A stretch of 64,000 bases of DNA from Daphnia pulex. Its lineage: Eukaryota; Arthropoda; Branchiopoda; Diplostraca; Daphniidae. Location: NCBI RefSeq assembly GCF_021134715.1, contig NC_060027.1, forward strand, positions 992,001 through 1,056,000, given 5' to 3'. This document shows, one piece after another, positions 1,213 through 39,852 of the stretch. The first letter of the stretch is position 1, and each line of letters begins with the position of its first letter. The notes under the pieces were generated by a model, which saw only the letters and a list, made by a program, of their open reading frames with translations, made no database searches and had not been told where the DNA came from. The translations under genes and the position numbers were made by a program.

Positions 1213-1226
1213 AACAAAATGAATGG

Positions 1227-3031
1227 CGGTGAAATAGGACCTAACGAAATAGGCCCCTACAAAATAGGCCCGTCAAATAGGACCTACAAAATAGGACCCT
1301 ACAAAATAGGCCCACTATAGAAAATATTTCTAAAGCGGTCCTATTTCTACCAATTGATGGGCCTATTTCTCCTCAATATTTCCAAGTCTCATAAGAGACA
1401 AGGAAATTTTTCAAAAATTAGCCAACCAAGTCTCTGGGCGAGAGAAGGCGGCTTGATTATGAGTGAAACAGCCACTCTCTATATACTTTGCCGTAGCTCA
1501 AACAGCATGACATCTGATATCACTTTACCGTCTTGTAAATCACACGTTAAGTAGCCGGATTCAAGTTTTAATTTTTTAAACATATTAACCGTAATCATAA
1601 CTATTAAGTTCATTTGTTAAAAATTCCAGTTTCATTTCAGAACTGATTTATTTTAAAGAATAAGTAAATAAACGTGCTCGCTCTGCAGTTTTTTCTCCCC
1701 TAGCCAGATCTCCCCTTCGGCCTTCAACGCGTCGCTTGCCCAGTGCATAGGCCATAGGTGAAGAATTCAATCAAACAATTTCGATGAAATAATTTGTACT
1801 CTTTTATTGAAAACGTTTTTATTGACAATTAAAATGAAACGAATTTTTGTTTTGTATAATATTTTAAAATGCTGGTTTTAAAAATTCCCCATCTATCGGT
1901 AAAAGTCGGTAAAAGGCGCTTGGTTCGATAGCGTCATGAAGATGGCGTCATCTGTCCATCATCAACCATTAACCATCAACCATCATCGACTCTTACGCAT
2001 TTAATGAAAATGTTTTTTATAAATTATTACGAGGTCTTAAACGAATTTTTCAATGTGGTTTAATTTTTGATTCTATTTGTGTAAAGATTTCCATCTATCG
2101 GTTAAAATGGCGTGGTTCATTAGCGTCATGAAGATGGCGTCATCTGTCCATCAATCCATCATCAACCTCATCGTTAATTTACAAATACAAACAAGAAAAA
2201 GTAAAGTTATAAAATAAAAATAAATTTCATTTTATTATTGATCATTTTTAATAAATATGTAAATTGTTTTTTTTGAAACATTTGATTTGTTAGAAATCGA
2301 TTTTGAATCGTTTTTATGTCAAGCAGACGCCAAGCATCTTTGAATAGCGTGGTCTGTGCTCTATGATAAGTGTTACTGCTGGAGTGAGCAATTTCAGGTA
2401 AATAAGGTTATAATGTTGTCAATATTTATTCTAATTGGAATGCTCAACTTGGTTGAAAAGATAGCGTCATGATGGCGTGCCCCGTTAGCGTCATGATGGC
2501 GTGCCCCGTTAGCGTCATGGTTGGCGTGCCCTGTTAGCGTCATGGTTGGCGTGCCCTATGTAAGCGTCGTGATTGGCGTGCCCTGTGTTAACACAATATG
2601 CTTTCTTTATTCGTGTGCTGGTATGTGTGTGTCTGCAATTCATTTTGCATTATTTCAAACTAGTTAATCTCCATACTTCTTAGTGATTTCAACACCAGCA
2701 TTGGTCAGAGGAGACTCGCAAGCAGCAAGCTAGAACCTCTTCATCAGCCAGAAGCTTGCTACAAAGAAGTACACAGGTTGATTGCATTATTTGTTAGTTT
2801 GATTAAAGTTGGCTTTTAATCTCTTTGTTTTCTTTATAGTACAGGGGCTGCACAGATGTGCAACAATTTTATCGAGCCATGGCATCTGAGTGTGATGGTG
2901 CCCTGTCAATTTATAATATGCCAACCCCTAACTAGCCTAGGAGTAAACAGGTTGATTTGCATTATTTGTAAGTATAACCATTTTCAGATTCCTTGTTAGC
3001 AGATGTAACAGTTGAAAACATTGGCATTCCA
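1227..3031 (+). repeat. Left inverted arm of element 1
   Basis: Nearly perfect reverse complement of 5813-7617. From the tip inward it holds six forward AAATAGG subrepeats (1231-1316), two inverted copies (about 1336-1375), an AT-rich part with short GCGTCATGAAGATGGCG motifs, a 24-27 bp tandem array (2463-2586), then unique sequence. ORFs here, such as 1354-1554, are mirrored in the other arm and look non-coding. Confidence 0.85.
2463..2586 (+). repeat. Five-copy 24-27 bp tandem array in left arm
   Basis: Units begin with AGCGTC at 2463, 2487, 2511, 2536 and 2563 and contain the core GCGTCATGATGGCGTGCCC with small changes. The mirrored array is at about 6258-6382. Element 2 has a short degenerate version near 10137-10172. 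The units could be binding sites for a transposase or host factor, but nothing in the sequence proves a role. Confidence 0.75.
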
Positions 3032-3946
3032 AATATTACTTCCAAAACAGATTCACTAGGATCTATTGGTGGTTCAGCTCTTATGCCCTCGCTTTCGTAA
3101 TTACGCCTGGATACAGATGGTAACGATAGATCAGCAGTTGCCTGTAACGGATATGTTTATTATTTTAAAAACGAGTCTAATTTAGTCATGTTGTCAACTT
3201 ACTAATGAATGCTCGGCTTCGGCAGGAGAATTCTGATGTCGGACTTCTTGCAGAGGGGTCTGGACACGTTCTCTTCGCTGTGGCGGAGTAGAAACTTCAG
3301 GAGATCGAATTGGAGAGGCTAATACCAAATCAGGAGAAATTATTTGTGATAAAGAAAGAGGAGATGAATGTGCAATAGGAGTTGCTCTGTTTGGGGAAGG
3401 TGATGGTGATTTCTGCCGATTAGCAGCAACCGAAGTACGTCTGGCTACATGGGAAGGATCAAGGATCTCCCGACGCTTAATGGTCCTTTTTGGACGCCCT
3501 GCAGCTCTTGCAGCTACCGCTTCCACGTCGTTCCCATCATTGGATCCACCAGCCACCGCTTCTTCAAGATGCGCATCAGTACCGCGGGAAGCCGGGGTTC
3601 CTTCCACCATAGAAAGACTACCATTCGCCTAGCGTTAAAGGTGACCATTAGTAAAATAAGGACATAATTCAAGCAAATTTCGTTTACTAAAAATAACAAG
3701 ATAAAATTTTAGACTTACTGGATCTGCATCATCCGCAAGAGTTTCTCTACCAACACCTTCAACGCACTTCGTACAACGATAGTTACTAGAATATTCTTTC
3801 CATGTTAGTGTACCACCTCTAGCAAAGACAACTCCGCAACAGGCACGGTGAAGTGGAACTTTACAAACGAGACACCGACAGAATTGCTTCCGGCTGGAAA
3901 CGTCACAGTCACAATGAGAACACTTTGAAACAGAAGAGAAAGCCAT
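2962..3946 (-). CDS. Unidentified zinc-finger (PHD/RING-like) protein in element 1 loop
   Basis: A three-exon minus-strand model: about 3726-3946, about 3194-3636 and 2962-3140, with donors GTAAGT after codons ending near 3720 and near 3200. The N-terminus has a Cys/His cluster (CSHC, then CRCLVC, HRAC and CTKC) spaced like a PHD or RING-type zinc finger. The middle is basic and Ser/Pro-rich (GRPKRTIKRRE, SPSPSPN). The last exon runs into the left inverted arm and stops at 2962. I do not recognise the family. It may be an element-encoded accessory protein or another captured host fragment. No transposase motif was seen. Exact acceptors are uncertain. Confidence 0.5.
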
Positions 3947-3969
3947 GGTGAGTACTAGAATGTTAGTAG

Positions 3970-4600
3970 CGCTGGACTAAAACAGAGACTAATACTATTT
4001 TTGAAAAAAGAGACTTCTTATATAGGAATGATTCAACTCGAAGGAGGAGCTACCGAACATATTGGTGGTTGTCGATCTCTGAATCGTAGAGAGCCAAGAG
4101 TATGTGTTCGCCGATTTTCCAGAAGTCTTGTTAGTGGCGTGTGAGATAATGGTTCCCTTGGGAGATTACTTGGTATATGGTGGAAGTTGTGATGAAGCCG
4201 GCAAAATTCCTTTTCTTGGTACTTGGTGTATGGTAGAAGTTATGTGATGAAGCCGGCAAAATTCTTTTGGTACGGTCAATAGGTTACAATGGCGGTCTTT
4301 ATAGAAAAAATGTGTAAAGGCTTACTTGGTTATCTATAACCAGTTACGAAAAGTAACATTGCAAATGGAAGTTGAATGTCGATAAATAGTATTTATTTAA
4401 ATCATTATAATACAAACAGTATGAAAAATAATGAACATTTCTAACAATAGTAACTACCCATCCCATTTAAAAAATGCGAGAATCACACAATTAAATATTT
4501 AATTAGAAATCTACACGTTTGATGTAATTGTACACTTCGTGTAAGGAATTCTTCGCCGATTGAAAATTCTTAATCTTGAATTAAATCCATTGTTGACCAC
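3970..4600. other. Loop spacer of element 1
   Basis: Non-coding spacer between the zinc-finger gene and the P4-ATPase fragment. It contains two imperfect copies of a GAAGTTNTGATGAAGCCGGCAAAATTC segment, near 4183-4212 and 4230-4263. I see no gene here. Confidence 0.4.
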
Positions 4601-4659
4601 GCTGCCTGCGGAATAGTCCAATCACTGAAAATAAGACAAAAACTTTAGATAAATTAATT

Positions 4660-5812
4660 CAATCCTTTGTCAAAATCATTTGCCTTACAAGTCGTAAGCG
4701 CAAAAAACTACTACAATGGCGGAGAAACCCAGGAAAATTGAGACGGCGATTGAGACAACGAATACATGAGTCCAGTAGCGTGAACAAGAATGAAAGTAAA
4801 CATTCCTTTAAATTAGACACCCATGCTTGACAAATGATCGTTTCTGTAGAATAACAAATCCGTTCCAAAATATATCACAAAAGCGTGCCAAAGTGCTAAA
4901 ACGATCAATTTCAATCCAATATAACAAAACCTTACATTCTGTTATAGTGCAACATTACCGAGACCATTCCATGTGCGAATTTTGTAAGTGAGAAACAAGA
5001 TTATACCTCGGCTTTTTGAATGGGTGACATCCGGCAACAGACGACAGCTTCACAGTGTTTCGTCACTTCGGCTACAACATTTCGGTGGTGAGTTAATGCC
5101 ATAGATAGACAATGGCAATCTATTACCATTCCATAATGACGATCCGGTAGATCTCGTATTGATTTGCTGTTAATGATTTCTCCGTTACACATCATCAATT
5201 AGTTTTGAAATCACTGAACACAAAATTTACCTGGACTGGAACAACATTTCTTCGACTTCTTCTGATGAACTCAATTCAAAAATGTACATCCCTCGTTTGA
5301 AATGACCGCAAGAATGTGCAATATTAACAGCAGTTTCAAATTTATCACCAGTTAACACCCATATCTTTAAAAAAAAATTATCAATTGTTGAATTGGGAGC
5401 ACATTAAAATATGAATAAAGTAATATGGTTACTTGAATTCCAGAAATTTTTTGAGATTCTAGAGTCTCTTGTACTTCCTCTTGAAGTTGGTCCTCCACTC
5501 CTGTTGCTCCCAATAATGTTATATCAACTTCAATCACATCAAAGCATCTCGCTAGTTCCGTTTGTCGATCAACCATTGATTGGCGAGCACCGCAGTCCAA
5601 GCTTAAATATAAACAAAACATCAAAAATACTGCAGATTTAAGGAAATATTTGAATTCTTTTACCATTGCGTAATCCTTAATGTGTTGTTCTGTTTCGTCG
5701 ATTGATCCTGCAACACACTTGAGTAAAACTGTACTTTCGGCGCCTTAACACAGAAGCCAAATAGAGTCGTCAGGAAATTGAACAATCACCGACCAAGTTT
5801 TTTGCTCCAATG
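4660..5812 (-). pseudogene. Captured P4-ATPase (phospholipid flippase) fragment
   Basis: Minus-strand exons encode consecutive parts of a P4-type flippase cytoplasmic region. Order: SVIVQFPDDSIWLLC then a stop codon where families have Lys before GAES (about 5730-5810); LLGATGVEDQLQE (about 5450-5600); TGDKFETAVNIAHSCG, the P-domain hinge (about 5240-5370); and CCRMSPIQKAEV (about 5001-5190). A weak YWTHVF transmembrane-like piece follows near 4690-4790. Introns are retained, so capture was at the DNA level. The ATP11-like class is my best guess. N-terminal membrane segments and the DKTGT aspartate region are absent. The fragment begins exactly at the right arm border. With the in-frame stop and missing ends it cannot make a working flippase. 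Confidence 0.8.
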
Positions 5813-7617
5813 TGGAATGCCAATGTTTTCAACTGTTACATCTGCTAACAAGGAATCTGAAAATGGTTATACTTACAAATAATGCAAATCAACCTGTTTA
5901 CTCCTAGGCTAGTTAGGGGTTGGCATATTATAAATTGACAGGGCACCATCACACTCAGATGCCATGGCTCGATAAAATTGTTGCACATCTGTGCAGCCCC
6001 TGTACTATAAAGAAAACAAAGAGATTAAAAGCCAACTTTAATCAAACTAACAAATAATGCAATCAACCTGTGTACTTCTTTGTAGCAAGCTTCTGGCTGA
6101 TGAAGAGGTTCTAGCTTGCTGCTTGCGAGTCTCCTCTGACCAATGCTGGTGTTGAAATCACTAAGAAGTATGGAGATTAACTAGTTTGAAATAATGCAAA
6201 ATGAATTGCAGACACACACATACCAGCACACGAATAAAGAAAGCATATTGTGTTAACACAGGGCACGCCAATCACGACGCTTACATAGGGCACGCCAACC
6301 ATGACGCTAACAGGGCACGCCAACCATGACGCTAACGGGGCACGCCATCATGACGCTAACGGGGCACGCCATCATGACGCTATCTTTTCAACCAAGTTGA
6401 GCATTCCAATTAGAATAAATATTGACAACATTATAACCTTATTTACCTGAAATTGCTCACTCCAGCAGTAACACTTATCATAGAGCACAGACCACGCTAT
6501 TCAAAGATGCTTGGCGTCTGCTTGACATAAAAACGATTCAAAATCGATTTCTAACAAATCAAATGTTTCAAAAAAAACAATTTACATATTTATTAAAAAT
6601 GATCAATAATAAAATGAAATTTATTTTTATTTTATAACTTTACTTTTTCTTGTTTGTATTTGTAAATTAACGATGAGGTTGATGATGGATTGATGGACAG
6701 ATGACGCCATCTTCATGACGCTAATGAACCACGCCATTTTAACCGATAGATGGAAATCTTTACACAAATAGAATCAAAAATTAAACCACATTGAAAAATT
6801 CGTTTAAGACCTCGTAATAATTTATAAAAAACATTTTCATTAAATGCGTAAGAGTCGATGATGGTTGATGGTTAATGGTTGATGATGGACAGATGACGCC
6901 ATCTTCATGACGCTATCGAACCAAGCGCCTTTTACCGACTTTTACCGATAGATGGGGAATTTTTAAAACCAGCATTTTAAAATATTATACAAAACAAAAA
7001 TTCGTTTCATTTTAATTGTCAATAAAAACGTTTTCAATAAAAGAGTACAAATTATTTCATCGAAATTGTTTGATTGAATTCTTCACCTATGGCCTATGCA
7101 CTGGGCAAGCGACGCGTTGAAGGCCGAAGGGGAGATCTGGCTAGGGGAGAAAAAACTGCAGAGCGAGCACGTTTATTTACTTATTCTTTAAAATAAATCA
7201 GTTCTGAAATGAAACTGGAATTTTTAACAAATGAACTTAATAGTTATGATTACGGTTAATATGTTTAAAAAATTAAAACTTGAATCCGGCTACTTAACGT
7301 GTGATTTACAAGACGGTAAAGTGATATCAGATGTCATGCTGTTTGAGCTACGGCAAAGTATATAGAGAGTGGCTGTTTCACTCATGATCAAGCCGCCTTC
7401 TCTCGCCCAGAGACTTGGTTGGCTAATTTTTGAAAAATTTCCTTGTCTCTTATGAGACTTGGAAATATTGAGGAGAAATAGGCCCATCAATTGGTAGAAA
7501 TAGGACCGCTTTAGAAATATTTTCTATAGTGGGCCTATTTTGTAGGGTCCTATTTTGTAGGTCCTATTTGACGGGCCTATTTTGTAGGGTCCTATTTCGT
7601 TAGGTCCTATTTCACCG
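5813..7617 (-). repeat. Right inverted arm of element 1
   Basis: Reverse complement of 1227-3031, of equal length by hand alignment. It contains the mirrored 24-27 bp array (about 6258-6382) and the mirrored AAATAGG subrepeats (about 7527-7617). The arm join with the loop lies at GGAATGCCAATG (5814-5825). Confidence 0.85.
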
Positions 7618-7633
7618 GCTACCAACAAAATGA

Positions 7634-8604
7634 CCTCAGTTGTGTGTAAACCAGGAATGTTATGATGGAATGGGGAATTGCAATGAGATATATTTATGAG
7701 AAGTTAAACCACAAACTGAAATGTTCCAACACTTTCTGCTTTTAATCAATAACATGAACTCATTAAAAAATAAACCATTGAAATCAAAATTGTTTTCTCT
7801 TGCATATTAATCACACATATTTTTTACATAAATCCCAAACATCCAATACTTTTTTGTAAATAAAATAATATCCAGCCAAAATTTTTATTAAATTTTAAAA
7901 TTTGCTAAAAACAACCACCCATTTATTATTTTACTAAGTCTTTTTCGCAAAAAATTGGCGATGTTCATTTATCCCATGTTTTCTCTTGTTTTAAAATTTA
8001 ACAATTTTTTATTTATTTTAAATTTTTTATTTATTTTAACACAACCACATATATTTTATGGCCCCCAGGGAGGGGGGGGCCTGTGACTTTCCCAACCGCG
8101 ATAATAACATGTGCCGTTATTATTTTGTTGGTGCAGAAAGCCGGAATTTAATCTAGCAGTTGTCGACTATGTCAAATCTGACATGGGGTCAGATTGCCAC
8201 AATCGTATACTGCACATTGCACAAGTAAGAAGGCAAAAGACAACAGATGAAACCAATTCAAATCAGAAACTCACTGGCAGAGCAAAACCACAAATAAAAA
8301 GGGATAAAAATATTTAAAGTCAGCAACACAGGATACCACTTGCAAAGCAAAAAACACAAATGAGAACAGACATAAATATTTAAAGTCAGCAACCCGGATA
8401 TCACTGGCAACTTCAGGAGACCGCCAGCACAGCTACTTCTGGGTAACACTGGAACCATATGCTGCATACAACAGTTCAACTAGTCTTCATCACATCTTAC
8501 ACCATCAGGCTGCAACAAGGTAACCAACAGCGGACCTATTTAAGAAAATAAAAAAATTACCATCGGGGAAACACAGTGTGTACACAATTAAACAGGACTC
8601 ATTA
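7634..8604. other. Spacer between the two palindromic elements
   Basis: About 1 kb of mostly AT-rich DNA separating the two insertions. No coding sequence is supported. The right half holds a short tandem repeat (separate entry) and a G-run near 8071. Confidence 0.5.
8272..8401 (+). repeat. Two-copy 65-bp tandem repeat
   Basis: Units 8272-8336 and 8337-8401 share the CACTKGCARAGCAAA start and the ATATTTAAAGTCAGCAAC end. A third partial copy starts at 8402 (CACTGGCAACTTC). Confidence 0.7.
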
Positions 8605-9478
8605 GGATAAAAGGAAGCCGGAGATATAGGACCGGTCGAAATAGGCCCCGACGAAATAGGCCCGGCAAATAGGACCGGACGAAATAGGACCCTACGAAAT
8701 AGGCCCACTTTTAAAATATTTTTAAAGCGGTCCTATTTCTCCGTCAAAGTGGGCCTATTTCTCCCAATTATTTCTAAGTTCCATAAGGTACTCTGAAATA
8801 TTTAAAAAATAAATTCGACCTACTCTACATGAGCGAGAAGGCGGAATTATCTGCGAGAGATCCGCCACCGTATATATTCATTGCCGTAGCTCAAACCACG
8901 ATGATTGATTTCACACATTGCCGTTTCGTTTTTCACATGTTAGGCAGCTGATTCCCGTCTTTATTTTTTGATGAACGTATTCCCCTTTATCTTAACTGTA
9001 AAATTCATTTTTTACAAACGTCGTTTTCACTTATTAACTATCGCTAATTTAAAAAAATGAACAAATTTCCGTGTTTTCTTCGCCATTTATTTGTTCCGTA
9101 GCTCGATCCCCCCTTCAGCGGCTCAGCCTTGAACGCGTCTCTCCCCTTTCAGCGGCTCAGCCTTGAACGCGTCTCCCCCCTCTACCTATGCCAGTACTCA
9201 GGTGAAGTAGGAAATGAACATGTTTGATGAAATAAATCTTACGGATTGATTTCAAACATATCCATAACAATTTAATGTTTTTTTTTTTAAGCAACAAACG
9301 CATATCACTTTTAAGTTTCTTGTTTTATGGGGCTGACGCGAGGTGCTGCTCAAGCCGGCCAGAAGGGTGGTCGAGCGGGGGAGGCTGCACGCACTCATGG
9401 GAGAGGGGTGAGTGAAGGGGGGTTTACCTGGGCCATACCATACACGCCCATGTTTTCCCTTCTCCGTATATGTTAAAG

Positions 9479-9541
9479 GATGGAATAGTGGTTAGCAACT
9501 CGGGCTATGAATCTCAAGCGCCGGTGTTCGAATCTCGGCCA
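9479..9541 (+). repeat. tRNA-like segment (possible SINE head), left arm
   Basis: The stretch has an A-box-like TAGTGGTTAGCAACTCGGG and a B-box-like GGTGTTCGAATCTCGG at tRNA spacing. Stems are imperfect, so this looks like a degenerate tRNA or tRNA-derived SINE rather than a working tRNA gene. An identical mirrored copy lies at 13918-13980. Confidence 0.45.
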
Positions 9542-10390
9542 TGTCGATAAAGATTTGTATTTACAAAATATTTTAGAAAATTAATAGCTCAACAGCATAA
9601 AGCGGTGTGGAACTATCCTGGCGAAATTGATGGTTTTTTCTTTTTTTAATTGATTTAATATACAGCACGAAAAGGAAATTTCTATTATAGTTGAATACCA
9701 AATGTGGTTTTGAAGATTTCCATCTATCGGTGATAGTAGCGTCACTAGCGTGGTTCAATAGCGTCATGAAGATGGCGTCATCTGCTCATCGTCAACTTCA
9801 GCGTTTAATTTACAAATAAGAAATAGAAATCTTATAAAAAAATTAAAATAGCTTCAAGATGTGTACATTTTATTTTTAATCATTTTAAAATTTGAATTGC
9901 AATTTTCGTTACATTTGATCTGTAAGAATTCGATTCTGAATCATTCTCATTTCAAATCGATTCACACACATAGCAGACGCTAACACATCAAGCGTCATCA
10001 ATAGCGTGGTCTATGGTGCAATGCTATCACTGGAGTAAGGCGTTTATCTTCTATTCGGGTATGTTAGAGAACTCTTATCATGTTATTTTCAATCTTTAGT
10101 TTCTAATATTGTAATTATCAACTTGTGTGGATAGGTAGCGTCATGATTGGCCTACCCTGATGGCGTCATGATCGCTGCTGATTGCCTTTCAAATAGGTTT
10201 TCAGCATTCTGCTTACACCTTTGGCATAGAGTCACATATTTCACAATCCAACATCAATTGGTACCAACAGCAGCCCTTCTCTCCATCATCCAGAAGGGTC
10301 TGAGATCAGTGTTGGAGATGTGTGTGACAATTTTAATATGATGAAATTTATCTACCACCAAATTTTTACTCTTATGTTTTTGTTTTTCAG

Positions 10391-10794
10391 GATGGTTCGG
10401 AACAACCCATGGAAAGCTTATCAGTCATTGATGCTGTGATGCCTGATGTTGTTGCAAGTCGTCAACAGCAAACCCAGAACAAACAGAAACCACAAGTGGT
10501 AAAGACAGAACCACCAAATTCCAATGGAGATGAACCCATGCATTCCAATCGTAAGATAGTCACTACTTTTTTTTGATCCCCTGAACTGCTTACTTATTTT
10601 CCCTTCAACTATTTAATGAAGGCTGGGAAGAGGAAACAGAAGTAGAGATACCTGCCAGCAAATCTACTGTACTTCGTGGCCATGAATCTGAAGTTTTCAT
10701 CTGTCTGCGCCTGAACCCAACAACATTCAGAAGGGTGGAACTGAAGTTCCGAGCAACAAAGATGTCACCTCACTTGACTGGTATGTAAGTTGTG
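10391..10794 (+). pseudogene. Captured TBL1/ebi fragment, left arm copy
   Basis: Two exon pieces (10391-about 10551 and about 10621-10794) with the intron kept. The first encodes PMESLSVIDAVMPDVVASRQQ, typical of the region after the LisH/F-box-like part of TBL1 (ebi), a subunit of the NCoR/SMRT corepressor complex. The second encodes ASKSTVLRGHESEVFIC, the start of the WD40 propeller. After NPTT the frame shifts: another frame reads GGTEVPSNKDVTSLDW, a later TBL1 segment. The first WD repeat was therefore deleted and the fusion is out of frame. An identical inverted copy sits at about 12681-13071. It is not a working gene. Confidence 0.85.
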
Positions 10795-10922
10795 CTATGT
10801 AATGCTATGTGTAATGTAATGTGTATGTAAGCAAGTGCTTTTGACGGAAGTGTAAGTTTGGTTTTACTATTTCATTCGATTTGTTTTAATTTTATTTCAT
10901 TTCAAGGTATTTGCTGGGATAA

Positions 10923-11950
10923 CTGAACAGAAGTTTTAAAGAAAGACAGAAACAATTGACAAGGCAAAAGATTGGGAACCTGAATGCTATTCAGGTAACT
11001 AGTGCCAATACATTTTATACATCAATAAAAATAAGATAATGTGTTCTAAAATTCTTCGTCACGAAAATGTAATTAAGTATCTCTACATTAATATTTTTTG
11101 TTTCTGATTTTCTTCTTTTTATCTGAACAGAGTGCAGGCGAGAAGCTTAAAGCTGCACTTGAACATACAGTGACGTCCTTAAGAAGCATTGTAGAAGAAA
11201 TTCGTACTAAAGAAGATACTATACAAAAACTTCAAACGCATATCGAATCTATGCCACCTTCAGTACTAACAAGGTAATAAACTTTTGTTATCCACTTGAG
11301 TAACGAGATAGTTGTATCTCTTTCTTTTTAGAACATTTTATACTCAAAGAATACTGAGTATCGTAGCCAACGTCAAGAAACAAAATGAAGAAATGCATCG
11401 GGTGCTTCAAGATGTAAAAAGTGTGCAGCGTGAAATCAATTCAATACAGGGAAAAGTTGAGCGTACGTTTACCGTTACGGATGAAATTATTTTTCGGGTA
11501 TCTATTACTTACTATCAAAATGCTGATATTATTAATAAAAAAATGTTGTTACCTTTTTCTTTTTTTATTAGATGGCCAAATCGGATGAGACTGCCCGGCG
11601 TATTTACAAGTATTTGATTTCATTGCAAACTGATTGCTCTGACATCCAAAAATTAGTGAAAGAATCTGGCAACTTGTCACGAGAGATAAAGGATTTAGAA
11701 GAACAAGTATGTTTCGCTAATTTTTGTTTGTTTGTTTGCATTATTGTCAAATAATGTCAAATAATGATGCTGTTTGTTTCGTAATCAGGCGGAGATCGAA
11801 TTACGTAAGAATATTGCTACCAAAATTAGGCGACTGCAAAGTGACCTCGAACAGATACGGACGGAAAATCAGATTTTAGAAGAACGAGTCGGTACTAAAA
11901 TTAAATTATTCATCTTAGTTTGTTTCCAGTCAGCCTCACTTTGTTCAAAT
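10923..11950 (+). pseudogene. Captured CCDC22 C-terminal fragment
   Basis: Exons at about 10940-10993, 11131-11273, 11332-11497, 11572-11706 and from 11789 keep a continuous frame through GT-AG introns. The protein has the CCDC22 coiled-coil signature: RILSIVANVKKQNEEM, SVQREINSIQGKVERTF, VTDEIIF, IYKYLISLQ and EIKDLEEQ. CCDC22 belongs to the Commander/CCC endosomal recycling complex. The N-terminal calponin-like half is missing and the first exon starts inside the inverted arm, so this is a captured 3' part. No stop breaks the reading frame until 11951 or an unused donor at 11890. Expression as a truncated or chimeric protein cannot be excluded. Family match is clear; status as a pseudogene is my inference. 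Confidence 0.75.
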
Positions 11951-12220
11951 TAAATTTTTCTCACTTCAATAAAGTTTAACATTCCAATATTCCATCTCAT
12001 TAAGTGGCCATTAAGTGGATTGTACATTATACAAAGCTACTATAATGCATTGATTGTAACCTTGTACTTTGTTTAAACAATCAAGAAGCTACCAAAAAAT
12101 TAATTCGTTACGATGCAAGTTACTAACGACGATAAGCTAAGCTATTAAATAAGCCATAAATCAGATTTCCTTCGTATTACGTTGGAATTGTTGAATTAAA
12201 TGATTAATTGTTCCATGAAT
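11951..12220. other. Loop spacer of element 2
   Basis: AT-rich spacer between the CCDC22 piece (plus) and the formin-like piece (minus). It could be the 3' flanks of the two captured genes. Nothing else is visible. Confidence 0.35.
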
Positions 12221-12223
12221 GCA

Positions 12224-12482
12224 TTCTGCATTGCCAACACTTTCTCCTTTGCTTCAACTAGAAATCCTGAGAAAAAAGTGTAAAAATTAAGTAAAGAAAT
12301 TACACGTTCCAGTAAAAATATTAACAGACCTTTCATAAAATCGATAAGATCGGGATCTGCAACTAACAATTCCTTCTGAAGGTCATCAATCTGTGATTTC
12401 CATTCTCAAACTTCTGTTGCCAGTGTCTCAAGACTCAGCCTGCTCGCTTCTTTTACAGAAGCCAGTTGGACGGTGAAATCTA
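12224..12482 (-). pseudogene. Captured 3' end of a probable formin FH2 gene
   Basis: Minus strand. The first exon (about 12331-12482) reads VQLASVKEASRLSLETLATEV, then an in-frame TGA, then SQIDDLQKELL and DPDLIDFMK. After an intron, the exon 12200-12270 reads FLVEAKEKVLAMQNAFMEQ and stops. The ASRLSLETL pattern followed by a short helical tail resembles the end of formin FH2 domains, actin-nucleating proteins. The match is by eye only; another coiled-coil protein is possible. The stop codon marks it as broken. It adjoins the right arm at 12495. Confidence 0.45.
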
Positions 12483-12494
12483 GAAGAGATGGGT

Positions 12495-14845
12495 CTTGTC
12501 AATTGTTTCTGTCTTTCTTTAAAACTTCTGTTCAGTTATCCCAGCAAATACCTTGAAATGAAACAAAATTAAAACAAATCGAATGAAATAGTAAAACCAA
12601 ACTTACACTTCCGTCAAAAGCACTTGCTTACATACACATTACATTACACATAGCATTACATAGCACAACTTACATACCAGTCAAGTGAGGTGACATCTTT
12701 GTTGCTCGGAACTTCAGTTCCACCCTTCTGAATGTTGTTGGGTTCAGGCGCAGACAGATGAAAACTTCAGATTCATGGCCACGAAGTACAGTAGATTTGC
12801 TGGCAGGTATCTCTACTTCTGTTTCCTCTTCCCAGCCTTCATTAAATAGTTGAAGGGAAAATAAGTAAGCAGTTCAGGGGATCAAAAAAAAGTAGTGACT
12901 ATCTTACGATTGGAATGCATGGGTTCATCTCCATTGGAATTTGGTGGTTCTGTCTTTACCACTTGTGGTTTCTGTTTGTTCTGGGTTTGCTGTTGACGAC
13001 TTGCAACAACATCAGGCATCACAGCATCAATGAGTGATAAGCTTTCCATGGGTTGTTCCGAACCATCCTGAAAAACAAAAACATAAGAGTAAAAATTTGG
13101 TGGTAGATAAATTTCATCATATTAAAATTGTCACACACATCTCCAACACTGATCTCAGACCCTTCTGGATGATGGAGAGAAGGGCTGCTGTTGGTACCAA
13201 TTGATGTTGGATTGTGAAATATGTGACTCTATGCCAAAGGTGTAAGCAGAATGCTGAAAACCTATTTGAAAGGCAATCAGCAGCGATCATGACGCCATCA
13301 GGGTAGGCCAATCATGACGCTACCTATCCACACAAGTTGATAATTACAATATTAGAAACTAAAGATTGAAAATAACATGATAAGAGTTCTCTAACATACC
13401 CGAATAGAAGATAAACGCCTTACTCCAGTGATAGCATTGCACCATAGACCACGCTATTGATGACGCTTGATGTGTTAGCGTCTGCTATGTGTGTGAATCG
13501 ATTTGAAATGAGAATGATTCAGAATCGAATTCTTACAGATCAAATGTAACGAAAATTGCAATTCAAATTTTAAAATGATTAAAAATAAAATGTACACATC
13601 TTGAAGCTATTTTAATTTTTTTATAAGATTTCTATTTCTTATTTGTAAATTAAACGCTGAAGTTGACGATGAGCAGATGACGCCATCTTCATGACGCTAT
13701 TGAACCACGCTAGTGACGCTACTATCACCGATAGATGGAAATCTTCAAAACCACATTTGGTATTCAACTATAATAGAAATTTCCTTTTCGTGCTGTATAT
13801 TAAATCAATTAAAAAAAGAAAAAACCATCAATTTCGCCAGGATAGTTCCACACCGCTTTATGCTGTTGAGCTATTAATTTTCTAAAATATTTTGTAAATA
13901 CAAATCTTTATCGACATGGCCGAGATTCGAACACCGGCGCTTGAGATTCATAGCCCGAGTTGCTAACCACTATTCCATCCTTTAACATATACGGAGAAGG
14001 GAAAACATGGGCGTGTATGGTATGGCCCAGGTAAACCCCCCTTCACTCACCCCTCTCCCATGAGTGCGTGCAGCCTCCCCCGCTCGACCACCCTTCTGGC
14101 CGGCTTGAGCAGCACCTCGCGTCAGCCCCATAAAACAAGAAACTTAAAAGTGATATGCGTTTGTTGCTTAAAAAAAAAAACATTAAATTGTTATGGATAT
14201 GTTTGAAATCAATCCGTAAGATTTATTTCATCAAACATGTTCATTTCCTACTTCACCTGAGTACTGGCATAGGTAGAGGGGGGAGACGCGTTCAAGGCTG
14301 AGCCGCTGAAAGGGGAGAGACGCGTTCAAGGCTGAGCCGCTGAAGGGGGGATCGAGCTACGGAACAAATAAATGGCGAAGAAAACACGGAAATTTGTTCA
14401 TTTTTTTAAATTAGCGATAGTTAATAAGTGAAAACGACGTTTGTAAAAAATGAATTTTACAGTTAAGATAAAGGGGAATACGTTCATCAAAAAATAAAGA
14501 CGGGAATCAGCTGCCTAACATGTGAAAAACGAAACGGCAATGTGTGAAATCAATCATCGTGGTTTGAGCTACGGCAATGAATATATACGGTGGCGGATCT
14601 CTCGCAGATAATTCCGCCTTCTCGCTCATGTAGAGTAGGTCGAATTTATTTTTTAAATATTTCAGAGTACCTTATGGAACTTAGAAATAATTGGGAGAAA
14701 TAGGCCCACTTTGACGGAGAAATAGGACCGCTTTAAAAATATTTTAAAAGTGGGCCTATTTCGTAGGGTCCTATTTCGTCCGGTCCTATTTGCCGGGCCT
14801 ATTTCGTCGGGGCCTATTTCGACCGGTCCTATATCTCCGCCAATC
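12495..14845 (-). repeat. Right inverted arm of element 2
   Basis: Mirror of 8614-10963, including the TBL1 fragment on the minus strand (about 12681-13071), the tRNA-like segment (13918-13980) and the AAATAGG subrepeats near 14752-14845. The mirrored ORFs 13117-13311 and 13691-13885 are repeat sequence, not genes. Confidence 0.85.
12681..13071 (-). pseudogene. Captured TBL1/ebi fragment, right arm copy
   Basis: Inverted copy of 10391-10794 with the same internal deletion, intron and frame break. Both arms carrying it shows that capture came before, or together with, formation of the palindrome, or that conversion copied it from one arm to the other. Confidence 0.85.
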
Positions 14846-14854
14846 GGATAAAAG

Positions 14855-25408: not shown

Positions 25409-25809
25409 TTTGCACTGTATAAATATTATTCGTAATTTTAACACGCATACAAACAAAGCATCGTTGACCAGTCTGTTTTTCGGCATCTGTGTTATCCACA
25501 CAACGTCGTTTTTTCGGCAGCTGCAAAATTCATTTTTAAAACATATGTACAGCATAAAATTATCTATATACATCGTAAATATAAGTACGTCCAGGAAACA
25601 GTACACTGGAAAACAAACAAACAAATATTTTGTCAGAAAACGAATGAGGGAGATATTTAACGAGACTTTGTTTTTTGTTTGCAAATTCACTGGTTTGTTT
25701 CCGTTATGAGCTAGTCCCTGTTTGTGGGTAACTGACAGACAAAACATTGATTTGCACGAGGTAGATTTACAAATCGGAGAAGACTGAGAGAGAAAGTGGA
25801 GTTTCAACC

Positions 25810-28800
25810 TTACGTGTTGTTATACCGACGCTGTTTCAAAATGCCCAAGACGTAACCGTTGGACGCACTGCCGTTGCTAACATAACTTCCTTTACTATCT
25901 TCACTAGCCATGGAGGTAGTGCCTTTGGAGCTTTCGCTCTTGCTGCCATTGCCGTTTGCAGCAATTTGACCACCAGGATTTGTAACGTAAATTATGGCTC
26001 GCCTTTCATGTGGAAATAGAACAGGGACATGATCGTCATCACCTACCTCGTCATCCCTGATACCTTCTTCGTGTTCCGCTCTTCTGCTATTCCCAAGTTG
26101 CAGGCTGGAAGGTGGTCTCTGATCTTTGAAAATGTGTTGTTCATTGTCAATCTGCAGAATCTGATCACTGGTGTAACAATGGTTTTGGGATAAAGGGTCA
26201 TTCACTAGCAAATCACCATTGCCATCGGTCAGTGTTTCGTGCAGTGGTGTCGATGGATCGTTGAGACGTTGAGTTTCTTGCTCGTAGTAAGCCCTGAGTG
26301 TCGCCCGAGCACTAATACCGGCGTCTGAATGAAAAAACGAAACGCTTGCAAATTGCGACGAAACCTGTTGAAATCAAACAACAATTATTCAATAAGATAA
26401 AATGTTTGTTACATTCAGAGTCCATATACTAACGTCTGGCAAAAGGTTTTCGACGAGTTCTATGAAGGTAGGTCGTTTCTTCGGATGATGTTGCCAACAG
26501 CTTTCCATAAGAATGTAAAGCCTGTTTGGGCAACCTTCGGGCCGTTCCATAACTCTGCCATCCATCACATACTTGACAACCTCCTCGTTGGGCAAACCCT
26601 GATAGGGTTGCGATGCCAGAGTTGCCATTTCCCATAACACGACGCCAAAACTCCAGACGTCACTCGATGAAGTGTAGACATTGTCACGAAGTGATTCGGG
26701 TGACATCCATCGGACAGGCAACAATCCTTGAGCATCTCCTCTCCGGTAATAATCCGTTTCGTAAACATCACGCGTTAGTCCGAAATCGCCAATCTTCACG
26801 GTCAGATCACTGGCCACCATGCAATTCCGAGCAGCTAAATCACGATGAACGTACTTCTTCTCCGATAAGTACATCATGCCATCGGCAATTTCGATGGCCA
26901 TCTTCAATATACACTGAACAATTCAACGAAATCGATGAGGAAATGAAGGTGACGAAAAGGGCAACTTTTTAGCCTACCTTAAGAGTAGGCGGTTGTCGAC
27001 CTTGGATGACATTTTCCTCGCAGTCAGGTCGACGTGAGCGTAAGTAAGTCTTAAGGTCTCCATTAGCCATCAGCTCCATGATGACCAATGTAGGTTGAGC
27101 TTTAGATACAACACCCAATAGTTTGAGGACGTGGTGAGCGTTAAATTCTCTGAAAATAAAATAAAAAAATAAAATTACAAAATATGTTTCAACAAATCTA
27201 CCAATAATGTTGTTACTTCATGACGGAGGCTTCGTTGAGGAATTGGATCCTTTCAGTTACATCGGCTTTTTCGTTAACGGTTTTGATAGCGCACTTAGTT
27301 TCAGATCCGTTGCTACGTAATATGCCTTCATAGACCATACCAAAAGATCCCTGACCCAATGGACGAATAGTGACAACATTGTCGCGAGCCACTTCCCAAT
27401 CGTCAGGGACGTATCCTACACAAAAGATAGTAATAATAAGCAACTGCTTTGAAAAATATGACGGATACAATGTTTAAAATATTACTATGATAATCAGGAT
27501 TGATAGAGACAATGCCCTTTCCATCCTTGTTCTTTTTGTTTTTGATGAAAAAATATCCCATTAGTGCGCATAAGAAAACCACAGCGAAGAGGACCAAGAC
27601 GAATATGGATACAAGGCTATAATTTAGTCCACTCACGGGTTCCTAGTTAATTAAAAAAACAAACACAAAGCCATTACTTACAAACCAAATGAAGTTTTAG
27701 CCATTAATAAGTAGTCAAACCTCGATAAGGAAACAAACGTCCTTCGTAGGTGGTCCAGGCCCAGCCAAAGAAAAAGCTCGAGCGTGAACGCAGTAATTGC
27801 CCGGAATTAGGTCAGCCATTAGTCGGGTCTTATTGCTTTCAACAAAGTCCTTCCGGCGAATGCATTCTCTGACAACTTTGCCCTTTTAATGATGATCTTG
27901 ATAAGTAAACAACCAGGACATTTCAAACAGAAATCAGGCTTACGTTGTCAGTTCGTTTGTATTCAAGAAGATATTTTGTGACAAGTCCGTTGGGATCCTC
28001 CGGTTCACTCCAACCAATTTTGATCGATGAAGTCGTGGAATTCGAATCGTATCTCACTACACCACCAACGATATCATCCGCAAAATCTGAAAAGGGACGA
28101 AATCAAAGTTACACACCAGGTAATCACAGACAAATGACAAATAACAAAATAAATATTTACCACTCTGTTTGGTGCGAGCTGAAGTCACGGCCGTTAAACT
28201 GCAAAGGCTCCTATTCCTGACGGGATCGTGGTCGTGACAGGCGACCACTTGTATTGTATATTCGGCGTAGTGTCGTACACCGACCACAGTGTAACTCGTA
28301 CCCGTCACTTTTTGATAAAAAGTGACCAACCGATTATTTTCGTAGGTGTTGGTGTGATTTTCACCTGGCACAATTCCAATTGCTTGGTTGTGAGAGGAAT
28401 TAATCGTAATCTCGGGGAATTCTTCTACGATGTTGTTGTCATGGTTGTTGTCATGATCTCCAGTTTCAGTCGTCGCATCAGCTTGTCGTTTTTTTCGGCC
28501 GTGGACACTGTGACAACGGCAAACAATTTGTAAATTCATCTCCTGAAGTAAAAGTTACGCAAAATAGAAATGGACTAACACGGGGTCTTTGATGTAGATT
28601 TTATCATGGAGAAAGTTTTCAAATTCAATTTTGAATTGTTGCTCTTTTTCCTTCTTCTCCAGAGTCACTTTGTCATTTGTCCCAGTGCATTGGCAACATT
28701 TGCCTTGCTGAGCACTGCCACTGCCGCCGCCACTTTCGGGGTTGTTGTTTCCTTCAGGGGACCCTCCAAAAATACTTGGATCGCCGAATATTGAAGTCCG

Positions 28801-31800
28801 ATTATCCGGTGATGTCTCCTCTAAAACTGGCTTCTTCGTTTCGCTAACAACCAATGAACTAGCATCTAAAGTAGGAACCAAATTTGAGATCAGAAGATTG
28901 CAATAAGTTTTATCAAAAAGAGATATTTTTTATTTTATAATATGAAAAGTCTCACGTTCAGCGCAAGCGTCGAGCTTGTCAAAGTAGTCTTGGTCGTCTT
29001 TACGCCAACTGCCAGTGACGATGTAATGTGTCACAATTCCGTTAGGATTAATCGGGGGTTTCCATTCTATAACGAGTTCGGAGCTAGAGTTGGCAGAAGC
29101 TCTTAAATCTTCTGGCTGATCGGGTTCTATAAGAAAATGACAACAAACATGTAAGAATCAACATAAAGCAAAAAAAAAAAAAAAAAAAAAAAACTTATTT
29201 TAGTTATTTACCTGCTGGACTAGTTCTTTCGTACAAAATTGGACTTCGGGCGCCTACCCGTTTGCCCATTTGTTGCAGTGCGACTGTATACGTTTGGACG
29301 TAAATGGCGTATTGGGTGTAAGGCTTGAGAAAAGTAATAAGGTGCATTTGATTTTCGTCAGAATGAGCATCAAGATTAGCAGCAACATTGTTGACCCTCC
29401 ACCTTTAAAAAGGCATTTTAATGAATATCAAGACAATAGTATAAACAAAACAAAAACTTACCCGTCACCACCACAAGCGTCACGTCCATCGTAATAAGAG
29501 ACATTTGCAAAAGGAGCCTCGATATAAGAAATAATATAGCCCAGCAATTGGCGTTTATCATCCAACATTGCTCTGAAATTGTCCCAACTTAACAGCATTC
29601 CAACAGAGGACTTGTTAACAATAGTGACGTTGAGAACTTGTTCGTCACACGTCGCCTTATCGCCATTTGACCAAGGTGAAATGTCCACGTCCGAGTGCTT
29701 AAACGCCAAAGTTCCTGGAACGGTACTGGAGTTGACGAGCTCTTCGATTAAATTCAAACACAACTTGGGATTGAAGTGGAACAACATCTTTTTATAGATT
29801 GTCAAATTCTGTGTCTTGGGCCACAGCTGCTGCAAATTTTGATTGTCCTGAACAGTCAACGCGTATCTAGAAACATAAATAAATTGAGGAATTTAAAATA
29901 TTGACATATTCACAAGGGAAACTAGGCACTTACTCGTCGTCGAAATTTTTGCTCCCACTGGAATGTTTCGGTTCCGGTTTCCCGGTAATGGTCCTGAGAC
30001 TTTTGAAGAAACTGAGCGACAAGATGGGAAAGGAGCGCGTGATTTTGAGAACTCCTTTAATCACTTCGATGCTGCCGAGACTCCTTTCCAGTTCCTGGAT
30101 GATGTTGTCGCCTCCTTTGATCTGCATTTCCAGGTCGCCATCGATTGTTGTGCATCCGCGCAACTTTTGGACCGTTTCGATGTTGCTAACGAACAATCCC
30201 TTGCACACCTTGGGACAAGGACCTGATCGAAATTGGAAAATGGAGAAATTGAGGCAAGTTCCCAGTCAATAAATCAATCGAGAAATTTACCTTGACAGGG
30301 AACGCAGGTAAAATAATGTAGAGTATCAGTGTGATTTATTTTTTTTTCCTGAAAGCCTGGCGGACATTCCTGGATTAAAATGAATGGCAATTAAACAATT
30401 AATCAATCAATTCGGTGCAATAGTTTTAATGCATCACAAGAATTCACAGCCGGAAATTCCATTACTTACCAAGATGCATTCTCCCGACTCAGCAAAGACC
30501 TTCCAATTCTTTTTGACGTACGGATATTCCTGGACAGATTGGCGTGGGGGTAGCATGGTGATGCACTCGACGTCGGTGACGCATCGCCGCTTCATAAACT
30601 AAACACAAGGCAAGAAGAAAAGAAGAAAATATTTTCAAATGAAAGTGGCGACGATTGGATTCCCTTCCAAACTGGTCGACGTGCACAGGAAAGAGCAGCT
30701 CGTGTGTGTTTGATCGTTTGAATGTAATTGAATAGGAGTCAGATAGTTAAACAACCAATTGGCGACGGCGGATCAAGTGCGCCCGCTCCGCAATTCGAAA
30801 CTAGAACACGTCCAATGAACGAGGCCAAGAGAGAAAGTTTCCTGCAAGATGTGGAGGTGAAAAATTCTTACCAAGTAATGGCCAGGAGGACAGACGGATC
30901 GGCATTCGTCGTTGTGGATGACGTGTTTGCAAACGTCGCACTGGTTGCTCTGGCCGCCACTGCACCCACCGGCGCACTCCTCGTGACAGCAGCGCATATC
31001 GGACGGACGCCCAACATCCCTCGTCATCACGCTGCACGCTCCGCTGACGCCTTGACCGCATTGGTCGCAAACTATCAACAAATCAACACCAAAGATTATT
31101 TTTAAATTTCAAAATTTCAATAAAGCCAAAATTAAAAATAAAAAACAAAATAAAGGAATCGGAAAAACGAATGAAAAATGAGATGTCCCGCCCCGCCGAT
31201 TGAAAATGGCCCGTCGTCGATAAACTTGCGACCAAAGAGACTCCCGTTACTCACCAACCATTTAAGGACACAACAGCGACCGAGTGAAATGATTGCCATT
31301 TCTCGTTCCGTCCCCCCAACAGACGATGATTTCATTATCTTTTCCTATCGTCGAAATATTTCGAAACTTAAAACAACAAGTCAATAATCTCCAGAGACCC
31401 AAAGTTGTTGCCATTCAGGGTCGCCGTTTTTAATGATCTTGTCGGTTTAAAGGGCAAGTCGCTCGTCCGCTCGATCGCCAGATGAATCAGCAGCTCGTAT
31501 TTGGGTTAGAAACTTATCGATCCAAGTTGGTGGTGTCTCCAAAAGATTGGAACTCTCGTCTCCGGATGTCGCCGCTGTCGTCGAACCTTTTCTTCTTCTT
31601 GTTTTCATTTATCCCCTCTCTCTCTCTCTTTCTCTCGCTGTTGTTTTTCTTTCTTTGCGTAAGGAATTCCAAAAAAACAACAATAAAAAAGAGCAGAACA
31701 ACAACAACAAGAGGAAGGAGAAATCCAAGTCATGGCCGCTGGCAGTGCCAAGGCTTTGCCACAACAACTCGATTTGACAATCATCTCGACAGCTTTTTTT

Positions 31801-34002
31801 GGCATTCAATTCCCCCCCCCCCCCCCCTGGTACTCAAGGCAAAACAGCAAATGCCCCTCGAGCCTTATCGTCTTTTCGAATCCTCGTGTTGTTGATTTAT
31901 TTTTGTTTGTCCAAGTGGTTGGCTGCCCTGAACGCACGACTCGACCAACTGGTTTCTTCCTTAACCGTTTTCGGCGGTAAAGGGGAGGGGGGATTCAATT
32001 AAACGCACTAATAACTCGGATAGAGCGGCGCATGATTCATTCATTCATCATGGGAAATGGCGTGGCAAGAAACCGCAAGAAAAACTGACCTTTCTGACAG
32101 TCGTCGTTGTTCCAACAAAGTCGGCGACCATCTCCACCGGCTGGACAACGATCCTGACATTTCGGACATTCGCTGGCCCTTTTATTACCCTGTAAATAAC
32201 AGAAGGAAAGCAAATGAAAAATGAGATCAACAAATAAGTCAAGAACAAGACACTGCCGTCCCGAACAGAACAGAATCTGATGGACGGCCAAGCGTCTCCG
32301 CCGGGAGTTTTCGATGCCGCAGTTACGCGAGACCGGAAAAGTCGAAGATATTCGACATCCGTTCTTCGACTCAGCTCCTTCATCTTCCAGTTTCATCCAT
32401 TCGCATTTTCGAAATTCCGGATGAAACGAGGAGGCGCAAACTCGCTCTCACATTCCTTTGAGCCACACTAGATGGCATTTGGTCAGATTCTGGGCTGGGC
32501 TGGGCTCAATCTCATTCTCTCCTTTGCAAATGAAACAAAACAGCCAAACAAACACGAAAACCGGTTGTCCCGATTCCCTTCCATGACGAACAAACAACAC
32601 GAGTGTCACGCAGGCACACAAGACACACTTCCACTTAAGGCGAAAGAATGACGAAAAAACCGTCGACACAATTCAAACAACGTAAATAATGACCTGGATG
32701 AAATGATTGAGGCGGCCGGAATGACCAATTCGGCCCCAATCGATCGATTCCACGTAGCAGAGATTTGGATTTTTTTCAATGAGGACGGATCCGCGCTGCA
32801 GTTCCGCCAACGATTTCAGTCCAATTTCCTGTTGGGTGAATCCGAGATTCACCCAAATGTTAAAACAGATAAATCGACACGACATATTAGCAAGAAACGC
32901 CAAATTAACCAAATAAAATGAACGTACCTGTAGTTGCATGAGTTCATAAACGACGAATGAGAAATCGAAAAGGAGCTGCTGGCCGCGGATGACGGCCAAA
33001 TTGGGAAACAGTTGGCCGATGGAGCGTAGGCCAAAGACGCGGTAAAAAAGCAAATAGCCCGTGATTTCCCGCAAGGCCGGGAAGCTGCGATTATTCAAGT
33101 CGCTGGCAAAGTCCAAATTTTCCATCAAAACAATGTGAAGGAAACCTTCCACCACTCGGCAGCCCTCCAATTCCGAAAATTGTTGGGGGCCGTTCCGGAC
33201 TTCGATACTGGGACAAACTGGTCGAAACGAGAACAATTGGTTACACAAACTATTTCAAAAACACTCGGTGGGCGTGAACCCAACGAACGTGCGCCGCTTA
33301 AATTGCACACCACAAAAAATGGCATCCCCCCATCATTGCCCCATCAGCTTCGAATCGGAATCATCTTGGCGCCAGTAAATCGATTAAAAGTTAAAAGTAA
33401 AATAAGAGATGAAAAGTTCAAATTTCGTAAAATGACCCAGCGGTCAGGAATTTAATTCTGCTCCTATTTGACCGAAATGTCAAATGAAATCTATTAAACA
33501 TCTCATCTCATCACCCCGGATGAAAACATTTGAAACTGAGACTGTTGATTATTCTGGTTTGAGAAATCCACAGAGTCCCAGTCGACTCGGTACGGTTCGC
33601 CCCGACACCTGACAATATCGTCAGTGACGTCACGCATGTGCGTGTTTTGTTGTTTTCTACTCCAGGACGATAATGAGAACGGATGTGACGACGACGTTTG
33701 TTGACTTTCTCGTTGCGACTACCAACCGTGGAACCAAGATGTGACGTCAAAGAAGACTTACTCTCTTTCTCCCTGAGAGGCTGATAGGCGTCGATGGACG
33801 AAATGGGAAGGGCCGGTAGAGCCTGGCCGAGAGAAGTGGCTCCAGTCACGTCGAGAAAGATCACGAAAACGACAAGGATGGCCAGGAAAAAGCCTCCTCG
33901 CCGTCGACTCCTTAATGCAGGACATGTTCTGCGATCGACTTGACGAAACGAGCCGCCAATCAACCGATCCGGATCGTTGGTTATCCGATCGTCAACGACC
34001 AT
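25810..34002 (-). CDS. InR: Insulin-like receptor tyrosine kinase, copy A
   Basis: Twenty exons: 33762-34002, 32928-33217, 32694-32828, 32090-32189, 30872-31071, 30470-30598, 30291-30369, 29934-30222, 29462-29866, 29212-29402, 28956-29126, 28582-28865, 28161-28542, 27944-28086, 27721-27882, 27486-27642, 27217-27415, 26978-27149, 26434-26913, 25810-26364; 1587 aa. Signal segment about 37-55, L1 about 81-222, furin-like Cys-rich 223-390, L2 391-560, fibronectin III domains with alpha/beta cleavage site GRKKRQ near 855, transmembrane about 1073-1100, NPDY 1115, kinase about 1125-1405. Kinase marks: [33 protein letters not shown]. The loop after YETDYY is RRGDAQ instead of the usual RKGGK. The tail is long, Ser/Gly/Asn-rich. 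It binds insulin-like peptides and signals through IRS/PI3K. Longer than the human receptor (about 1380 aa). Confidence 0.93.
28543..28581 (-). other. 39-nt intron of receptor copy A
   Basis: Minus strand begins GTGTTAGTCC and ends TTTTACTTCAG. Reading through gives a stop (TAA) in frame, so it must be spliced for a full receptor. It is extremely short. In copy B the same place has lost GT and AG. Confidence 0.65.
33625..33749. promoter_or_regulatory. Two CRE-like TGACGTCA palindromes in receptor A intron 1
   Basis: TGACGTCA at 33625-33632 and TGACGTCA at 33742-33749, inside the first intron beside exon 1. The octamer is the known CREB/ATF site. Copy B has both at about 47710 and 47827. Confidence 0.35.
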
Positions 34003-39431: not shown

Positions 39432-39852
39432 ATGCACTGTATAAATATTATTCGTAATTTGACACGCATACAAACAAAGCATCGTTGACCAGTCTGTTTT
39501 TCGGCATCTGTGTTATCCACAACGTCAGGGGGGTATTTTTTTTTCCTTCTTTCCGGCAGCTGCAAAAGTCATTTTTTTTTTTGTTTAAACAGGGCGTATA
39601 TACATTGGCTTGAGGTTACATGTATAGATATATACATTAATATATAAGTACAAAGAGTACACTGAAAAAAGAAAATGGTCAGAAAATGAATGAGGGAGAT
39701 ATTTAACGAGACTTTGTTTTTTGTTTGCAAATTCACTGGTTTGTTTCCGTTATGAGCTAGTCCCTGTTTGTGGGTAACTGACAGACAAAACATTGATTTG
39801 CACGAGGTAGATTTACAAATCGGAGGAGACTGAGAGAGAAAGTGGAGTTTCA

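Follow-up and report, generated by a model that had tools for sequence, protein, structure and literature searches.

Host gene fragments are carried in plants by Pack-MULEs and other Mutator-like elements (MULEs) with long terminal inverted repeats (TIRs), and the acquired sequence may join their extended TIRs (PMC3310237, PMC5225508). In animals, 100 reference genomes yielded 370 Pack-TIRs, with hAT and Tc/mariner elements dominant and no Pack-MULE reported; a single Foldback case is described there, Ssk-FB4, which occurs in fly populations (PMC8277862). More than one superfamily is held to have given rise to the Foldback structure itself (PMC4079207). Here we describe two adjacent giant-palindrome elements, E1 and E2, in a window of 64,000 nucleotides of the Daphnia pulex genome (C11:992001-1056000), the genome searched comprising 133.2 Mb in 13 contigs labelled C1, C2 and so on. 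They are complete transposons, both lying inside the window, and belong to a family with long arms and multiple copies that has captured host genes on several separate occasions; one of these captures is present in both arms. We interpret E1 and E2 as non-autonomous Foldback-type DNA transposons of Daphnia, and put the probability of the overall mechanism set out below at roughly 0.8.

The two neighbouring elements noticed in the initial annotation are real, and so are their near-perfect arms of 1.81 and 2.35 kb. E1 spans 1221..7623 (6403 bp) and E2 8613..14845 (6233 bp), the borders of both being fixed by tip scanning. In E1, arms of 1808 nt at 1227..3034 (plus strand) and 5810..7617 (minus) enclose a loop at 3035..5809; the E2 arms, of 2345 nt, lie at 8619..10963 (plus) and 12495..14839 (minus). 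An inverted-repeat search of the window reported both arm pairs as 100% complementary. Counted over arm positions 10-1085, that is, excluding the first 9 bp, the two arms differ twice in E1 and never in E2; across the inner 1500 bp of the arms there are one and two mismatches, respectively. E1 is flanked by 8-bp copies of AACAAAAT (1213..1220 and 7624..7631) and E2 by 8-bp copies of GGATAAAA (8605..8612 and 14846..14853). Flanking duplications had thus been rightly recognized, but their length had been given as 9-10 bp; we read the surplus as adjacent bases agreeing by chance. The ends, described at first as matching, do so along the arms but not in the outermost 9 bp, which are unlike at 4 positions in each element, so that arm symmetry stops short of the tip. 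E1 opens with a T-type tip, GAATGGCGGTGAAATAGG (1221..1238, plus), and closes with an A-type tip, GGTAGCCGGTGAAATAGG (7606..7623, minus); E2 has the A-type tip GGAAGCCGGAGATATAGG on its left (8613..8630, plus) and the T-type tip GATTGGCGGAGATATAGG on its right (14828..14845, minus). Subterminal 15-bp tandem repeats (AAATAGGACCCTACA in E1) occupy 1232..1310 and its mirror 7534-7612 in E1, and 8626..8703 and its mirror 14755-14832 in E2; they are putative transposase-binding sites.

The proposal of a family had been made dependent on further copies, and the tip search found the arms elsewhere in the genome. A 301-base tip gave 40 scored matches, and 20 regions were retrieved: nine (L009-L017) hold two-ended elements of 2.5-7.0 kb, and eleven (L018-L028) a single recognisable end or a degraded copy. 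Including E1 and E2, the family has at least 11 two-ended copies, which are dispersed. A tip pattern search allowing up to two mismatches found at least 108 places, against 39 with a reversed control pattern, and revealed a related family, whose tips are GATTGGCGGTGATTTAGG and GGTAGTCGGTGAAATAGG; five close pairs of it were retrieved (L050-L054). Long arms making up much of the element, target-site duplications and dispersed copies, the structural features of Foldback-type elements, are all present.

Duplications and tips were compared across 16 two-ended elements: E1, E2, L009-L017 and the related L050-L054. An exact 8-bp duplication flanks 13 of them, and none of 240 swapped left-right flank pairings agree; of the exceptions, L012 has 9 bp, and L013 and L051 have none. 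Large palindromes are recognised assembly hazards, and the elements might in principle be artefacts of assembly or of chimeric reads, or else inverted segmental duplications of an ordinary kind. Such artefacts, however, would not yield copies that sit each at its own site, with its own exact 8-bp duplication and unlike tips, as 13 of the 16 do; we find this explanation hardly credible.

E1, E2 and their relatives also show a regular pattern at the tips: one T-type (GATTGGCGG type) and one A-type tip (GGAAGCCGG type) per element, in 16 cases out of 16. Tip types were assigned by eye, and L013 carries changes in its A tip, L054 in its T tip; the pattern search spans both types, hence like-tip pairs could have surfaced. 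Within each of E1, E2 and L009-L017, there are 4 or 5 differences in the first 9 bp and 0-4 in positions 10-60; within each of L050-L054, there are 3 in the first 9 bp and 6-7 in positions 10-30. Unlike tips that stay constant outside homogenised arms suggest a transposase requiring two different ends. Elements with two like tips would then probably be immobile, and the final 9 bp would stay different out of a presumed functional need. Two points weigh against taking the tip count at face value. The 16 elements share descent, so they do not amount to 16 independent trials; and all copy counts are minimum figures, with one more close pair of tips, a 17th, at C5:5066418-5066644 standing outside them. 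At this last site, tip-like matches in opposite orientation measure ~227 bp end to end, possibly a miniature relative.

Set beside the described systems, Ssk-FB4 of Drosophila has similarly long inverted arms (~700 bp) and a host gene at several sites, but its duplications are 9-10 bp and it carries one gene; the available part of that paper contains no report of a gene in both arms or of constant unlike tips (PMC8277862). Galileo, a Drosophila Foldback of the P superfamily, includes copies with very long near-identical TIRs but makes mostly 7-bp duplications, and no host gene cargo is reported in the part of the source consulted (PMC4168063). The same is true of the source for Tetris of Drosophila virilis, a non-autonomous Foldback with 8-10 bp duplications and transposase unknown, whose TIRs, unlike those studied here, contain internal ~220 bp tandem repeats (PMC4079207). 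Plant Pack-MULEs share long TIRs and host gene fragments; the Daphnia elements differ from them in their tips and their animal host, and their membership of the MULEs is only possible. The initial annotation had called such elements not well described. This holds only in part: Pack-TIRs of animals, including the Foldback Ssk-FB4, are published (PMC8277862); for Daphnia, no such description was present among the open-access literature matches listed. With this family, gene capture by DNA transposons, arm likeness and a possible RNA silencing of the parent gene by captured inverted repeats become testable in a clonal laboratory animal.

The cargo of the E2 loop matches a locus on C4. A CCDC22 piece (11052..12219, plus) is 94.4% identical to C4:6716233-6717395 with its intron kept, and a probable formin piece (12222..12494, minus) is 96.3% identical to C4:6717931-6718201. 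The first is recognized by Pfam PF05667 (1.8e-25) in two frames with an intron-sized gap between them; the FH2 match of the second (E=0.0012) falls under the Pfam cut-off. Relative to the donor locus, 535 bp between the two pieces are absent from E2, where a 2-base filler joins the parts. The capture junctions are without clear microhomology, and the right edge lies at most 3 bp from the palindrome edge. CCDC22 and the probable formin piece form one capture. Their loop is found at five sites (E2 and L010-L013), 98-99% alike; of its 1531 positions, L010 covers 1-1406, in two parts, and L012 covers 1-1487. Four of the five copies have their own duplication and L013 has none, therefore the cargo moved with the element.

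The arms of E2 carry a second gene in mirror image. TBL1, a chromatin co-repressor, is represented at 10186..10791 (plus), with introns kept and ~5% substitutions plus many indels relative to a gene on C11, and at 12667..13272 (minus), the latter boundaries following from symmetry with 10186-10791. The piece is 84% identical to Daphnia carinata TBL1XR1 over 72% of the query, and its peptide had no match when searched against PDB. By tblastn, TBL1 pieces are present in 8 of the 11 elements (E2, L009-L014 and L016), always directed from tip to centre and, in 7 of the 8, in both arms; the one in L014 extends to residue 397 of 492. The most complete TBL1 gene of the genome, C11:3228801-3230691, has exons up to 98% identical to D. 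carinata TBL1XR1. Over an alignment of 581 columns, the E2 arm departs from it by 29 mismatches and 46 gap columns; the gaps disrupt the frame, and the pieces are therefore read as pseudogene copies. Since several shorter TBL1-like pieces come closer to the E2 arm (C2:8426501 at 97%, C10:4737462 at 90%, C10:4505487 at 88%, compared with 87% for C11), the C11 gene is only one candidate source. Beyond the retrieved elements, TBL1-like pieces occur at C10:4504402-4506056, C10:4737317-4737820 and C2:8426008-8427034, possibly as decayed elements or TBL1 pseudogenes. The TBL1 match starts (in L014, for example, at ~2740) in CTTTCAAATAGG, which resembles the AAATAGG repeats of the element's subterminal region, a possible microhomology at capture.

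In the E1 loop, a P4-ATPase piece (4620..5793, minus; loop 1586-2759) aligns collinearly to C9:3376181-3378172, in four blocks of 74-86% identity. Its exon at ~5421-5588 matches ATP11C (PDB sequence, 4e-7), and just upstream of it an in-frame intron read-through was noted by eye. A further piece (3399..3952, minus), with an open reading frame (ORF) at 3638-3976 on the minus strand, has PHD-like cysteines as judged by eye and two diverged blocks related to C12:5257365-5257939 (70-76%); it had no Pfam match and no protein relative in our searches. Three of the four host genes named at the outset (CCDC22, P4-ATPase and TBL1) are thus upheld and formin stays probable only; of the supposed zinc-finger gene, what is seen is the cysteines, by eye, and the diverged C12 relative. 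That intron-bearing pieces occur in both loop and arms is borne out by TBL1 and CCDC22. The four named genes trace back to three or more captures, one of TBL1, one of P4-ATPase and one of CCDC22 together with probable formin; the piece with PHD-like cysteines comes in addition. As in Pack-TIRs, the cargo has related outside loci (CCDC22 on C4, TBL1 on C11, a P4-ATPase relative on C9), and the CCDC22 loop has been amplified by transposition, at five sites. Arms of E1 type and E2 type share patches of related sequence as far as about position 1575 of the E2 arm, adjoining the TBL1 start, so that a common chassis seems to bear different cargo. Elsewhere, at L049 (6496 onward; C2:7576995), the ORF that follows a T-type tip matches ubiquitin hydrolase (UCH, 3.3e-13) and may be another captured gene; a MULE domain lies ~4 kb outside this tip.

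The arms of a given element resemble each other closely: within-element identity is 98.3-100% in E1, E2 and L010-L016; L017 has 96.0%, and L009, compared over 547 columns, 72.6%. Judged from arm positions 10-1085, the nearest relative of an arm is its sister in 9 of 11 elements. Among nine elements (E1 and L009 excluded), 44 private substitutions are shared by the two sister arms and 16 are confined to one of them. Sister-arm likeness and shared private substitutions form the pattern expected of concerted evolution. A simpler account would be that the elements are extremely young and their arms alike without any active homogenisation. Some elements are indeed young, E2 and L010-L013 being ~98-99% alike in arms and loop. 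On the other hand, the closest other arm is 2.5% away for L016 and L017 and 1.4% for E1, whereas their sister arms diverge by 0.28%, 0.74% and 0.19%, respectively, over positions 10-1085, and the private substitutions (44 against 16) point the same way; we judge extreme youth alone to be decidedly unlikely.

Homogenisation of the arms is, at the same time, not universal, and two exceptions speak against it: L014 has 2 differences between its own arms and 1 to L015, and the arms of L009 are unlike. L009 is a chimera, with a left arm of E1 type (98.3%) and a right arm of E2 type (93.5%); at its right end, about the first 120 bp are E1-like, followed by E2-like sequence. Its tip is of E1 type and its duplication exact, so that a chimera whose arms are unlike would appear to have moved. 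In all five elements with the CCDC22/formin loop (E2, L010-L013), the loop is oriented alike with respect to the tips, and this lack of loop flips, in a small sample, would fit conversion without crossover. L015 had been considered as a new palindromisation, which was rejected: its inner 591-bp arms are the TIRs of a nested 2.8-kb transposon (L015 2289-5112, on C11). This transposon is exactly central in the outer palindrome, its edges are without direct duplication, and close copies of it lie at C10:7784415-7787240 and C1:450726-453562.

We now propose a life cycle for these elements. A chassis of ~1.3-1.6 kb per arm, made of the tip, the subterminal AAATAGG repeats and the arm, would acquire host DNA internally, probably by template switching in gap or fork repair. 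DNA captured in the loop would travel with the element. DNA that reaches an arm would end up in both, because gene conversion or fold-back repair would keep the arms alike. The transposase would be supplied elsewhere; it would recognise two 18-bp tips, one of T type and the other of A type, and would make 8-bp duplications.

The TBL1 pieces raise a further possibility, that E2-type elements are mobile hairpin-RNA genes. Read-through over TBL1 in both arms could yield long double-stranded RNA and dampen TBL1. Ten exact runs of at least 21 nt, 401 nt in total, are shared between the E2 arm and C11 TBL1 (9 runs and 358 nt in coding blocks), and could feed small RNAs damping TBL1. We consider this role unlikely; if it were true, the family, with its constant T/A tips, would make of each captured gene an inverted repeat that homogenises itself and targets the parent gene.

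As for the source of the transposase, we guess, with a chance of about one in two, that it is a Phantom/Muta-like MULE, because of the 8-9 bp duplications, the long arms, gene capture and the Phantom-like Mutators of D. pulex (PMC2884549). MULEs have long TIRs, typically of more than 100 bp, duplications of 8-11 bp (PMC6446971) or 8-10 bp, and a record of host-gene capture (PMC5225508). The elements show long arms with 8 bp in 13 of 16 cases, 9 bp in one and none in two, a pattern in which the 8 bp are shared by other superfamilies. Muta1 and Phantom, the animal MULEs, are similar in their TIRs of more than 100 bp and, for Muta1, in duplications of 8 or 9 bp; they include autonomous copies (PMC5225508, PMC6446971), whereas none was found in the scanned parts of the Daphnia family.

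Several null results weigh against this picture. No transposase was found in six frames of the left arm and loop of E1 and E2, none of the T/A-tipped family in six frames of L050 2001-5602, and none in three frames on one strand of the L014, L016 and L009 loops; these scans left out L010-L013 and L017 as such. A search for autonomous copies among longer ORFs was equally fruitless: in the 20 of 56 ORFs of at least 130 amino acids scanned by Pfam there was no DNA transposase. Among these 20, an endonuclease-reverse-transcriptase domain passed its cut-off; RVT_1, Integrase_H2C2, IBR, DUF6710 and Baculo_F matched below threshold. Finally, none of 55 MULE domain matches lies within 10 kb inside any of 63 tips (~0.26 expected).

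The same anatomy could instead be moved by another superfamily making 8-bp duplications, such as KDZ (Kyakuja-Dileera-Zisupton), P/Galileo, hAT or Merlin, an alternative that we regard as possible though somewhat doubtful. Zisupton and Dileera also make 8-bp duplications, those of Kyakuja being 7 bp (PMC12730594); in Pristionchus, none were detected (PMC9297572). Galileo, for its part, is a long-armed Foldback of the P superfamily (PMC4168063). The genome holds 20 KDZ domain matches, and one KDZ gene, at L055 (CxC3 3.7e-28, KDZ 6.4e-12), is ~6.9 kb inside an A-type tip. However, this one match of 20 within 10 kb inside any of the 63 tips is weakly above chance (~0.09, or ~0.095, expected; random-point probability 0.0047), and the L055 arm, an ambiguous case, looks to us like a left-truncated neighbour element. 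A second KDZ-like piece, in L050, is under the Pfam cut-off and belongs to a separate, nested foreign element. An assignment to KDZ drawn from this CxC3-like piece and the L055 gene was accordingly withdrawn, given the nesting and the weak positional link. The MULE guess is retained at its even odds.

The nested element of L050 (2079-5535, on C7) is itself a foldback element of 3457 bp, with near-perfect 737-bp TIRs, tips CAACTTGATC and an 8-bp duplication, AGAAATAG. Its KDZ-like piece is cysteine-rich and N-terminal; the KDZ N-terminus had no match when searched in the protein database. Apart from E1 and E2, the window also contains a tandem duplication, between 25600-38000 and 39700-52000, with a spacing of ~14.04-14.09 kb and copies that are 80-100% alike (20 of 26 repeat blocks).

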